From NCBI GenBank assembly GCA_961205875.1, contig OY540815.1, positions 1,736,001 to 1,800,000 of the forward strand: a DNA stretch of 64,000 nucleotides, read 5' to 3'. This stretch comes from Sialis fuliginosa. Its lineage: Eukaryota; Arthropoda; Insecta; Megaloptera; Sialidae. Every line of letters starts with the position of its first letter. Positions within the stretch are counted from its first letter, which is position 1. The translations under genes were made by a program, and so were the position numbers. Below, one piece after another: positions 9,337-51,050 of this stretch. The notes beneath the pieces were generated by a model that saw only the letters and a program-made list of their open reading frames with translations, did not search any database and had not been told where the DNA came from.

Positions 9337-9871
9337 GAGTAATCCGGAAATTTTTAACATACCTTTTTTATTACTGAATTGCAAATATTAGGCTAGAAAA
9401 ATAATAATAGCATTGATTTTTTATTGCTCAATTTTAAATTATTCAATATTTAAAGTCGTAAAAATCGCATTTAAAATGCGACGTGATTGGTTGAAGCGTT
9501 TTTAACGTCATAATCCATATTCTGTCTAGCTGTCAATGGTGTGTGTATACAAAGTTTCAACGCGTGAGTTATAAAAACTAGAAGAAGCGGAAATCCTCAA
9601 ATTTGGGATTGTTGCCTTTAGAATGCCGCAATTTCTCGTATGTACATATTGCAACTACATATATATAGAATAACATTACTTTAATTTTTTTTCCTTCTTG
9701 TTAGTTTTCTTCTGGCACAGTTAGAAATCTTTTTCCAGGAGTTAAATTATTGCAACAAAGTACAAAACAATATTTATAACTTAATATTTTTCATGCGTTT
9801 TCCATGTTTATCGTTGACACTTGTATATTTAAGCATTTAAACTAAAATATACACCTTAACCACAATAAACC

Positions 9872-9923
9872 AATGTCACTCGACACGTGTTTCGATTTCA
9901 CAAGAAGTCCTCATCAGGAGCCT
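9872..9923 (-). ncRNA. Hammerhead-ribozyme-like motif, left arm
   Basis: The mirror copy on the minus strand. CTGATGA occupies 9917..9911 and GAAAC 9893..9889, with GACTTC opposite GAAATC, so helix II has one weakened pair relative to the right arm. It has the same extra G as the right arm. Confidence 0.45.
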
Positions 9924-9931
9924 AACAGTTC

Positions 9932-9982
9932 CAGGCTCCTGATGAGGACTTCTTGTGAAGTCGAAACACGTGTCGAGTGACA
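9932..9982 (+). ncRNA. Hammerhead-ribozyme-like motif, right arm
   Basis: CTGATGA at 9939..9945 is followed by a 6-bp helix GACTTC/GAAGTC with a TTGT loop (9947..9962), then GAAA (9963..9966) and CACGTGTC, with GAG following as a possible partner for the CTC before the first box. This matches the order of a type I hammerhead: box, helix II, GAAA, very short helix III, UH cleavage position. One extra G lies between the box and helix II compared with the canonical core, so activity is uncertain. Confidence 0.5.
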
Positions 9983-10257
9983 TTGGTTTATTGTGGTTAA
10001 GGTGTATATTTTAGTTTAAGTGACTAGAAACCACAGTTTCTCCGTTTTTCCAGTAGTATTTAAGCATTGACTGACATTTCAATACTGAATTATGACGTCA
10101 CGCAACATGGCGCGCAATTGGAAGCGTTTGAAAAGTACCTTTTTTAAATTGATATTTTGGGATCGGAATAAACTTTTGGAGTATAAAAAAGTCTACAATG
10201 TTTTTTTACCTCTAGATAACATTAAACAGGTTTTTAAGGGTTTTGACCAGATTACTC

Positions 10258-11198
10258 TTTAGTGACTGTATGCAAGGTACAAACTTAATGATAATACTTA
10301 AGTTTTAGTAATTATTTATTTATTTATTGTTGTATGTGATGTATAGTGTATTATGTAGCAATCAGCGCGAAGGTACTGTAGCGAGATGTTAACTATGTCA
10401 GGAGTTGAAACCAAGTGTCTTATTAAGAAAAATGAAAGATCCTGTTTTAGAGCGGTTAGAAAAGGATAACGATAGATATCTAGAGAGGGGGAAAAAATTC
10501 AAAGCGTACATCAGAAAGTTTGGAAAAACCTCGATGCCGGCGAAGTGATATGTCGGTATGTTTGAAAACCTATGCTGTACTTAAGGATATTAGACGTTTG
10601 CCGCCGATCTTGAGATATCCCAATCGAACGTGTTTAAAACTAAATGAACAGGCTTAAGAAATTAAAATTTTTATAATATTGTAAACTAAAGAATGTTGTC
10701 GGCTAACTGCAATAAAGTTGTTTTTAAAAATAAATGTATGTACAAAATATTTACATTAAAATCTTGGAAATTTAATATTTTAGCGTGGGAACGTCGCTAC
10801 GACTCTATTATATTTTAAAATTATATAAATCATATAGGTAATTTGCGAAATTTACTAGCCCGAATCGATTTCTGATTGATTGTAGTTTCAGAGAAAATTG
10901 CCTGTAACAGATGGGCGGACACTGTAGTTTTTACGGAACACTAAAAAGATTTGGCGCAACTACTGCAGGGTTAATATGCCATATACAAAGAAGTGTTACG
11001 CGACATATGAATTATCATAATGAATTCCGCTTGATGATACGGGGTATCATAAAAATATCATAAATAATAACGCGCTCACTGGGTATGACGTCACTGCATA
11101 TATAATAATACATTAATCTTTGATTTTTTGTTAGTGTCGCAAATTATGCGACGCACGTTATATTTAATATGTTTGTGTTGCTGCAAGAGTGTCTATCG
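10258..11198. other. Unassigned AT-rich stretch
   Basis: No gene or dispersed repeat that I can support. The segment 10360..10640 is slightly GC-richer but broken by stops in all frames. Confidence 0.4.
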
Positions 11199-47203: not shown

Positions 47204-47823
47204 GTCGAAGCAATCTAGAATTTGAGTTCGAAATCGGAGAGGGCAGGATGAAACTTTGAGGGTAGTTGGGGCCATTTAAAAAAGTTTAAATTCAAGTTTT
47301 AGACTTCATCCCCCGGGAGGTTTTTCCGCCATCTTGGATTTAGGGATGCATTCGTTTTTCGCGATTTGCGGCTTAACAACGCACTTTGTCAAAAAGTATC
47401 ATTGTAGGACATTTTCGTTCATGTTTAGTGCGCTCTAAAATATGCTAACACGTTCACTGTCGACTTCAAACTGAATTATCAGTCTCAAAAATTTTCCAAA
47501 AAAGCAGGTGCATCGTGAAAACGGCAGATTATTATTTCAAGCCCGTAATTGCTTAAATAATGGATTAATTAGTTCTTTAATAAACAAAGTTCGATAGGGA
47601 ATTTTATTATCTACAATAAATAACTGATGATACTTTTTGACAAAGTGCGTTGTTAAGCCGCAAATCGCGAAAAACGAATGCATCCCTAAATTCAAGATAG
47701 CGGAAAAACCTCCCGGGGGATGAGGTCTAATATTTGGATTTAAATTTTTTTTAATGGGCCCTAACTACCCTCAAAGTTTCATCCTGTCCTCTCCAATTCC
47801 GAACTTGGATAGATTGCTTGGAC
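47204..47823. mobile_element. TA-flanked foldback element, 200-bp arms
   Basis: TA then GTCGAAGCAATCTAGAATTT at the left, mirrored by ATAGATTGCTTGGAC then TA. The arms match for about 200 bp (GGATGAAACTTTGAGGGTAG, CATCCCCCGGGAGGTTTTTC, CGCGATTTGCGGCTTAACAA). The centre, about 215 bp, is unique. No frame. Confidence 0.8.
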
Positions 47824-48920: not shown

Positions 48921-50406
48921 GAGTAATCCGATAATTTTTGACATACCTTTTTTATTATTATACTTAATTGCAAAGATAAGGCTAAAAAATAAAAAATATC
49001 GGTATGGAGAACCATACATGACTTCCATGTTCTTTCTATCTTTTTAAATAATTTTTAAATATAATTTTTTTTAAATATTTTAATTATATAACCTACAACT
49101 ATGAATATAAATTTCGTAATACATAATAACATATACAGCTGTTATTGCCATTTATATATATATAAATATAATCTAATTTCATAATGTCAAAAACATAAAA
49201 CACATTCGTAGAACAACTAATTTGACAATCTGAATTTAGTTGCATTTGTTTCCAAGGCAACATAAATTAATGACGAATTAATTAGTATTTAAAATTCAAA
49301 TTTTAAGGGTGTTTTTCACCCATTCAATGGCTGTTTTGGCACGTACAAATAATAAACGTCCCTTAGATTCAATTGAACTACAAATGAATCAAGTCTTATC
49401 AAAATTAGTGAGATAATACTCGCAACGTTCATTTTTTAGACGAAAAAAGTTACAAAATTTCGAATATTTCCAAACCCTCTTATCCGATTAGCACTAAAAT
49501 CAATAGGTCTGGAGTACTCACTGATACAAACATTTTCCCCAAAAATAACTCAAATCGGTGCATTTTTACAGTAGTTATCGTGAACGAAAGAAAATTCTAC
49601 ATCCGCAGAGACACACAGACACACGCACAGCCGCCATGCGGAAATTAACTTTTCTTTAAGTTTTGAAGTTAGTACAATCAGAATTTGTCATTTTCTCGGA
49701 CATTACTTTCATTTCTTTCAGAACATGGAAGTAATAGCATTGAACAATTTGTTTTTTTAATTCCTCAGTTTTAAATTATTCAATAATAAAACTCGTAAAA
49801 ATCAGCTCGCATTTAAAACGCGACGTGATTGATTGAAACATTTGTGACGTCATAATTCATTTTCTGTCCAGCTGTGAACGTTGTTTGTATACAAAGTTTC
49901 AACGCGTGAGTTATAAAAACTATATGTATAGAAGAATACTAAAAATGAGTCGAAATCCTCAAATTCGGGAGTGTTACCCTTAAAAAGCCGTCATCTCTCG
50001 AGTATATTATTATTGTACATATTGCAACTATATAGAATAACCTAACTTTTAATTTTTTCCTTAGTTTCCTTCTGACATAGTTATAAATCTTTTTCCAGGA
50101 GTTTTGTGAGTTGAATTATTACAATAAGGTACGAAACAATATTTATAATTTATTATTTTTCGTGCAATTTCCATGTTAATCGTTGACAATTGTATATTTA
50201 AGCACTGACTGCATTTCAATACTGAATTATGACGTACCTACGCAACAATAAATTAAAAGCGTTTGAAAAGTAAATTTTTTAGATTTAATATTTTGTGGTC
50301 GGGATAAACATTTGGAGTATGAAAAAATTTTCTACAACGTTTTATTTTTACCTCGAGATTACATTAAACAGGTTTTTAGAGGTTTTCATTTTTGACCGGA
50401 TTACTC
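48921..50406. mobile_element. TA-flanked miniature element, copy 2 (interrupted)
   Basis: TA then GAGTAATCCGATAATTTTTG at the left and GACCGGATTACTC then TA at the right. It matches 9337..10257 but lacks the palindromic insert of that copy: the sequence TATTTAAGCACTGACTGCAT near 50195 is the empty site. It contains instead a 740-bp insertion of the ACTTCCATGTTCT family. Confidence 0.8.
48995..49740. mobile_element. ACTTCCATGTTCT-family element, full copy, nested
   Basis: Inverted ends ACTTCCATGTTCTTTCTATC and TTTCAGAACATGGAAGTAAT. The left outer edge adds a small hairpin (GTATGGAGAACCATAC). The 9.3-kb relative of the host runs without a break from GGCTAGAAAAATAATAATAG to CATTGATTTTTTA, giving the empty site. 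Target duplication could not be fixed exactly. No transposase. Confidence 0.75.
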
Positions 50407-51050
50407 TATTCAATATTGATTCGAAAATATAATTATAATACATTCTGATTTTATTACCACATAAATAAATTTTGCAATTTATCCATACATAAAAATTTTA
50501 AATTATCTCATCATAAACAAAACAATGTTACCATTATATTAAATGAATTTACTTCTTTATAGAAGTAAATATAATCATCTTTTTCAAAAATCGATGTTGT
50601 AAACAAATTGAAATCAGTATTTCCTTGATTGAAATCTTTCCTTTACATTTTATATAAAACGGAAATCAGAAATTTTCACAGATTTTTCCAACGAAATTCC
50701 GATCAAAAGAAAACACGTGATATTTCGAAACTTCTGTGTAAATGTGCGTGTGTAAAAGAAAATATTTATTTGAATTGAATGAATTTTATTGAATTGTATT
50801 TTTCCATCAGAGATTTTCTTCGAATCACCTGGAAATTATTTATTTTTATTAGTGATTCTTTATACATTTAATAATATATATTATTATTATATGACTTATT
50901 AACTATTTACACTAGTATTTTATCTTGAACTCCAAATTTTATTACACAGATTATTATACAAAATTCATATTTACAAAATCAAAAAATTTATACCCGGGCC
51001 GGTTATGATTATTATCCGGTCCTGTCTTCATATTCGGGTGTCCGTACAAA
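50407..51050. other. Unassigned AT-rich stretch
   Basis: I see nothing I can support. Confidence 0.4.

Follow-up and report, generated by a model that had tools for sequence, protein, structure and literature searches.

A hammerhead-bearing palindrome in Sialis fuliginosa as a probable Penelope-like insertion made of two convergent, target-primed cDNAs

The transposition of Penelope-like elements (PLEs) is relatively little known (PMC11167929). The closest described reaction is that of the Anolis Poseidon element in vitro, for which the available part of the account reports that the two strands of the target are each cut and extended, that reverse transcription starts at two adjacent internal sites, the tail being the stretch between them, and that the ribozyme cleaved only with the protein present and was dispensable for insertion (PMC11167929). 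A difference in start site between the two strands is not reported in that part, so a rule of one of each does not appear to have been noted in vitro, and the main text uses neither head-to-head nor target site duplication (TSD). In the rotifer Adineta vaga, the pLTRs of Penelopes are inverted and head-to-head, one of the two has a tail, and self-priming was proposed (PMC3846280); inverted pLTRs and short 3' extensions have also been treated as peculiarities of single PLE copies (PMC8969392). In the relevant sections of these papers the PLE tail is optional and situated on one inverted repeat (PMC11167929, PMC3846280, PMC8969392). Animal retrozymes, as far as the available sections of PMC7229834 describe them, are short non-coding repeats with a type I hammerhead, of short helix III in amphibians, which are arranged as direct tandem repeats and yield circular RNA. 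The insertion considered here belongs to an element type that is already known, the PLEs.

The DNA analysed, referred to below as the window, is a stretch of 64,000 nucleotides of Sialis fuliginosa (contig OY540815.1, positions 1,736,001 to 1,800,000). It contains a 219-bp insert bracketed by an exact 12-bp direct duplication, the whole occupying 9826-10068, with the left copy of the duplication (TATTTAAGCATT) at 9826-9837, its last two bases possibly being common to the insert end, and the right copy at 10057-10068. Both flanks of the insert align to a paralogous host repeat elsewhere in the window (on the left 9413-9835 to 49749-50204, on the right 10057-10258 to 50195-50407). This paralogue contains the first ten bases of the duplicated word once, at 50195-50204 on the plus strand, and the empty site is therefore real. 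The same ten bases occur four times in the window against 0.71 expected, the fourth occurrence being at 47550 on the minus strand. The discrete insertion between two word copies and the readable empty site, both proposed in the first-pass annotation, are therefore upheld. The host repeat that carries the insertion (9413-10258 and 49749-50407) shows 77-79% identity to its paralogue.

Within the insert, two inverted arms of 90 nt each (9834-9923 and 9933-10022), 98% complementary, are separated by a spacer of 9 nt. The palindrome itself had been recognised at first reading as 221 bp long; it measures 189 bp, as 10020-10056 is one-sided. Both arms are cDNA-sense copies of one 140-nt unit, joined near its first bases, and the unit of a real copy (L051) was used as a ruler with positions U1 to U140. 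Aligned to this ruler, the left cDNA arm (9838-9932, minus strand) has its outer end without a tail at about U103-U104, which we call site A, and runs inward to near what would be the RNA 5' end. The right cDNA arm (9933-10056, plus strand; alignment and reading) has its outer, tailed end at site B (U140) and is truncated inward at about U16, with an exact junction that is uncertain by a few bases. The 37-nt tail (10020-10056, plus strand) is present as an extension of the right end alone and proved the most telling feature of the insert.

Each arm bears a hammerhead-like core, on the left at 9882-9917 (minus strand, CTGATGAG...GAAACACGTGTC) and on the right at 9939-9974 (plus strand), where cleavage is predicted after 9974 (GUC). 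The Rfam search at the gathering score gave no match to the palindrome, and the Hammerhead_1 model (RF00163) matches both arms below its cut-off of 34 bits, with 17.6 bits on the left and 17.7-18.9 bits on the right; the conserved type I core CUGANGA...GAAA...UH is matched in the alignment to the Rfam consensus, with one extra G of stem II adjoining the core on reading. CTGATGA...GAAAC and CACGTG are found in both arms, as had been noted earlier; the perfect stem-II hairpin attributed to each arm is perfect on the right, and on the left it has one change (GAAATC). The 140-nt unit is predicted to fold into a stable structure (z -2.84) other than the hammerhead, a result that is neutral as to the ribozyme. 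Several miRNA models scored above the hammerhead in Rfam and were set aside, since all are below their own cut-offs and reflect the long hairpin alone. In the 392-Mb genome the pattern CTGATGA N8-30 GAAACACGTGTC has 542 + 590 = 1132 exact matches and the same pattern read backwards has none, a frequency well above chance. We regard the non-coding repeat of this element as bearing a type I hammerhead-like motif, a predicted ribozyme. If cleaved RNA were the template, cDNA ends should accumulate at the predicted cleavage site, but of the 41 partial second arms described below one ends within U55-U59, which gives no sign of this; the arms pass through this site, so the copied RNA was apparently not cleaved by the hammerhead beforehand.

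The palindrome, used as a query that included just the first three tail bases, matched at least 40 scored places in the genome, each on both strands, the other places being 88-98% identical to the window copy. For closer study we took 100 listed cores of the 1132, exact cores alone and all on contig C1, which represent 91 insertions and were fetched with their flanks. Nine loci have two listed cores, all head-to-head, which differs from the direct tandem arrangement given for retrozymes in the available text (PMC7229834); among the 100 listed exact cores there was no direct tandem array with a repeat length of 150-450 bp and a hammerhead in every repeat, and the closest same-strand neighbours lie 1.6 kb apart. 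One locus has degenerate direct repeats related to the hammerhead unit (L021, 142-1046), two of them spaced 166 bp, of a satellite- or retrozyme-like appearance. Another (L042, 3140-3986) shows alternating inverted hammerhead arms with telomere-like (CCTAA)n repeats in place of the sequence near site A. TTAGG repeats, which are associated with arthropods, occur in the 392-Mb genome, with one run close to the end of C1. In seven loci (L075, L082, L084, L114, L116, L133 and L141) the core arm aligned only from U21, and in L082 and L084 about 11 nt between AGTCTGGAA and CTGATGAG, a part of stem I, are absent, a possible subfamily.

Sequence upstream of the core is common to several single-core copies, and a 167-bp piece of it yielded 285 first-look candidates, 40 of them scored. 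In L059, L061 and L063 the reading frames end shortly before the hammerhead unit. The L059 ORF, upstream of the hammerhead and on the same strand, matches RVT_1 with 47.6 bits (cut-off 29.6). In L061 a 331-aa frame covers the end of the reverse transcriptase match and terminates a short way upstream of the unit; Pfam gave no match to it at E 0.001. GIY-YIG (PF01541) was matched weakly in L063 (17.9 bits) and L061 (16.6 bits; cut-off 22.6), and the L059 fragment had no match to this profile. Because a reverse transcriptase lies upstream of the unit, we conclude that the family is, to judge by its coding sequence, a Penelope-like element; the link to these elements that had been suggested from the hammerheads is thus borne out by the longer copies, which enter the PLE reverse transcriptase frame, and the window palindrome is a 5'-truncated PLE insertion rather than an independent mini-element. 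A genome search with the L059 frame gave 133 matches, which by identity represent several PLE families; in many of them the open frame is about 896 aa long. Those less than 8 kb apart, mostly of related PLE families by identity and not of the hammerhead family studied here, are oriented -+ in 20 cases, -- in 23, ++ in 15 and +- in 2, and the 20 against 2 indicate that ORF-bearing arrays, mostly of these related families, are also head-to-head. Long arrays of the ~896-aa frame, all minus and then all plus with a period of about 3.59 kb, lie at C10:2330-40733 and similar places, and at C10:3223931-3253563 the PLE body piece recurs five times at intervals of about 7.37 kb, apparently through tandem duplication.

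The central regularity concerns the outer ends of the insertions. Most of them cluster near U104 (site A) or at U140 (site B), and they were classed as A (U95-116) or B (U126-140), limits that were fixed after sight of the first palindromic copies. Both ends could be classed in 53 of the 91 insertions with listed cores: 52 combine an A end with a B end, a single insertion has A/A and none has B/B (one-sided Fisher's exact p = 2.9e-13 for the excess of one of each). The 37-nt tail is accordingly found at one end alone in 52 of the 53, and two tails in none; the sole A/A case (L130) is a weak match with no duplication found. In 25 further insertions no second arm was found and in 13 at least one end belonged to neither class, so that the rule rests on these 53. 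The same combination was seen in 34 of 36 other palindromic copies, a set recovered with the palindrome query, in which the tail was represented by its first three bases. One copy (L040) was scored A/A and turned into A/B once an insertion nested within it was read, the tail continuing beyond it; the nested sequence (L040, ~1663-1995) is a short inverted-repeat element in the palindrome's tail with an apparent TTA duplication. In L015 the tail is shortened to U121. Of the eight body-bearing loci obtained with the 167-bp piece, three show both ends, each with A and B (L061, L062 and L058, the last being identical with insertion L049), and the other five show one end in the stretch examined. The core follows no strict rule, being on the A arm in 34 of the 52 A/B insertions and on the B arm in 18. 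In its length and place the tail resembles the PLE tail between two reverse transcription start sites, and in general the Sialis family appears to share with the Anolis PAc element (Penelope/Poseidon clade) the hammerhead, the reverse transcriptase ORF, the cutting and extension of both strands, AT-rich targets and an optional 30-40 bp tail between two start sites, and to differ from the available account of it in that each site is used once per insertion (PMC11167929). We found no earlier count or statement of such strict one-tail pairing in the parts of the PLE literature that our search covered.

The two arms of an insertion also carry the same source alleles. At the GT/GG site (U68) the arm pairs agree in 52 of 53 cases against 37.2 expected from shuffling, and at the T-run at U91 in 53 of 56 against 25.7, with 0 of 20000 shufflings reaching either observed concordance; none of the four discordant pairs is a swap between common alleles. 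These two positions were picked for the larger test after a first look at every variable position in 43 pairs, where they agreed in 43/43 and 42/43, and U89 in 41/43. Concordance was lower at U3 (1/10), U11 (17/23), U105 (11/18), U107 (3/8) and U109 (1/5), which we take to be alignment-edge effects near junctions and ends. Over U22-U100 the mean divergence in the 43 pairs was 2.8% within pairs against 4.5% between copies.

We consider it well supported, with a probability of about 85%, that the palindrome is a single PLE insertion in which a staggered cut left two 3' ends, each priming a cDNA from a different one of two adjacent sites, and the cDNAs were then joined. The PLE enzyme would make a staggered cut with 3' overhangs of about 12 nt, both of them priming, as suggested by duplications lying outside both ends together with the cDNA sense of the arms. 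With PLE RNA as the template, one overhang would prime reverse transcription at A and the other at B, and both cDNAs would extend toward the RNA 5' end, near TCAGT, before their ends are joined, often at short microhomologies. Both strands may be templated by one RNA, or by RNAs of a single source copy, to which the one A and one B per insertion and the alleles common to the arms point.

The other features of the arms can be set against this scheme. Second arms, from 14 nt to full length, were found in 66 of the 91 insertions. In 70 of the 91 the arm with the core extends as far as U1-U7, and in body-bearing copies it adjoins TCAGT, which suggests that the RNA 5' end lies there. We take TCAGT at the unit start to be an initiator-like motif; a literature search for a Penelope initiator or downstream promoter gave no usable paper. 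Clean junctions share at least two bases in 26 of 47 cases, against 14.5% in simulated joins; the other 50 of the 97 junctions had over two mismatches and were excluded as noisy, and the identical U1/U1 join recurs among the 26, not all of which are therefore independent. The palindrome centres vary between copies. By script, adjacent duplications were found in 45 of the 91 insertions, 12 bp in 22 of them (the mode), with a range of 8-15 bp and 78% A+T, and none in the other 46; in L067 the script had placed the duplication far off, and an adjacent 12-bp one is present on reading. The many genomic copies with duplications of variable length that the first-pass annotation had asked about were found.

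A variant of this explanation, in which an asymmetric enzyme dimer carries two RNAs of one source copy and primes on both sides, must be treated as tentative and is on balance improbable. It accounts no less well for the one-A-one-B rule and the allele concordance, and the Anolis protein is predicted to be a dimer in the available text of PMC11167929, yet almost every insertion would then have required a pair of transcripts from the same copy, and none of the informative pairs (53 and 56) showed a swap between common alleles.

Self-priming, in which a single cDNA or an antisense copy folds back and is copied into a palindrome, as proposed for rotifer Penelopes (PMC3846280), would account for the matching arms, their concordance at both tested alleles and the palindromic centres. 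It predicts, however, second arms anchored at the centre. Only 4 of the 66 (L043, L074, L105 and L109) start within U25 and end at neither site, two of which (L043 and L074) resemble a shortened or internally deleted A arm on reading, whereas 41 have their inner end past U25 and 36 of these have the outer end at A or B, with neither in 5; the 21 near-full-length second arms are uninformative on direction. Nor does it predict a discrete A opposite B or the adjacent 12-bp duplications. As fold-back would give centre-anchored second arms and most are target-anchored, we regard self-priming as very unlikely in the hammerhead PLE family. The Adineta vaga families for which it was favoured have single or few copies, in the parts of PMC3846280 that describe them, whereas the Sialis family has many copies with target-anchored second cDNAs.

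An equally slim chance attaches to the palindrome being a stand-alone, non-autonomous ribozyme element of a retrozyme-like or SINE-like kind, possibly from an ORF-less source RNA; an inverted pair moved in trans had been the proposal of the first-pass annotation. The scored palindromic places so similar to the window copy and the lack of a protein inside would agree with this, but centres and arm lengths vary from copy to copy, second arms range down to 14 nt, and some copies have PLE coding sequence between the same ends. The differing centres speak against movement of the palindrome as a unit, and with the variable arms and PLE-bearing copies they indicate that each palindrome was seemingly made afresh at PLE integration; the proposal of a mobile inverted pair is thus not sustained. 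A fold-back or MITE-type DNA transposon with chance hammerhead-like sequence in its inverted ends, which would explain inverted repeats with a target duplication, can be practically dismissed given ends asymmetric by 37 nt, duplications varying from 8 to 15 bp, one-armed copies and the reverse transcriptase encoded in longer copies.

Two-sided target priming with joining of the cDNAs, our preferred reading, may be stated more strictly. We lean, by a narrow margin over doubt, towards the view that every insertion of the hammerhead PLE family consists of two cDNAs, target-primed and convergent, that an obligately asymmetric complex would make on one RNA and that are then joined, with start sites about 37 nt apart that would be used one per 3' overhang of the ~12-nt staggered cut. 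If this is true, the PLE tail would be the mark of one target strand and not an optional extension, and PLEs would prime on both strands by rule. The inverted repeats and the optional tail, formerly given separate tentative explanations, would come under one rule of one tail per insertion with target-anchored second arms. The Sialis counts disfavour self-priming in the hammerhead PLE family, and they fit the in-vitro data on the Anolis Poseidon system as given in the available text of PMC11167929.
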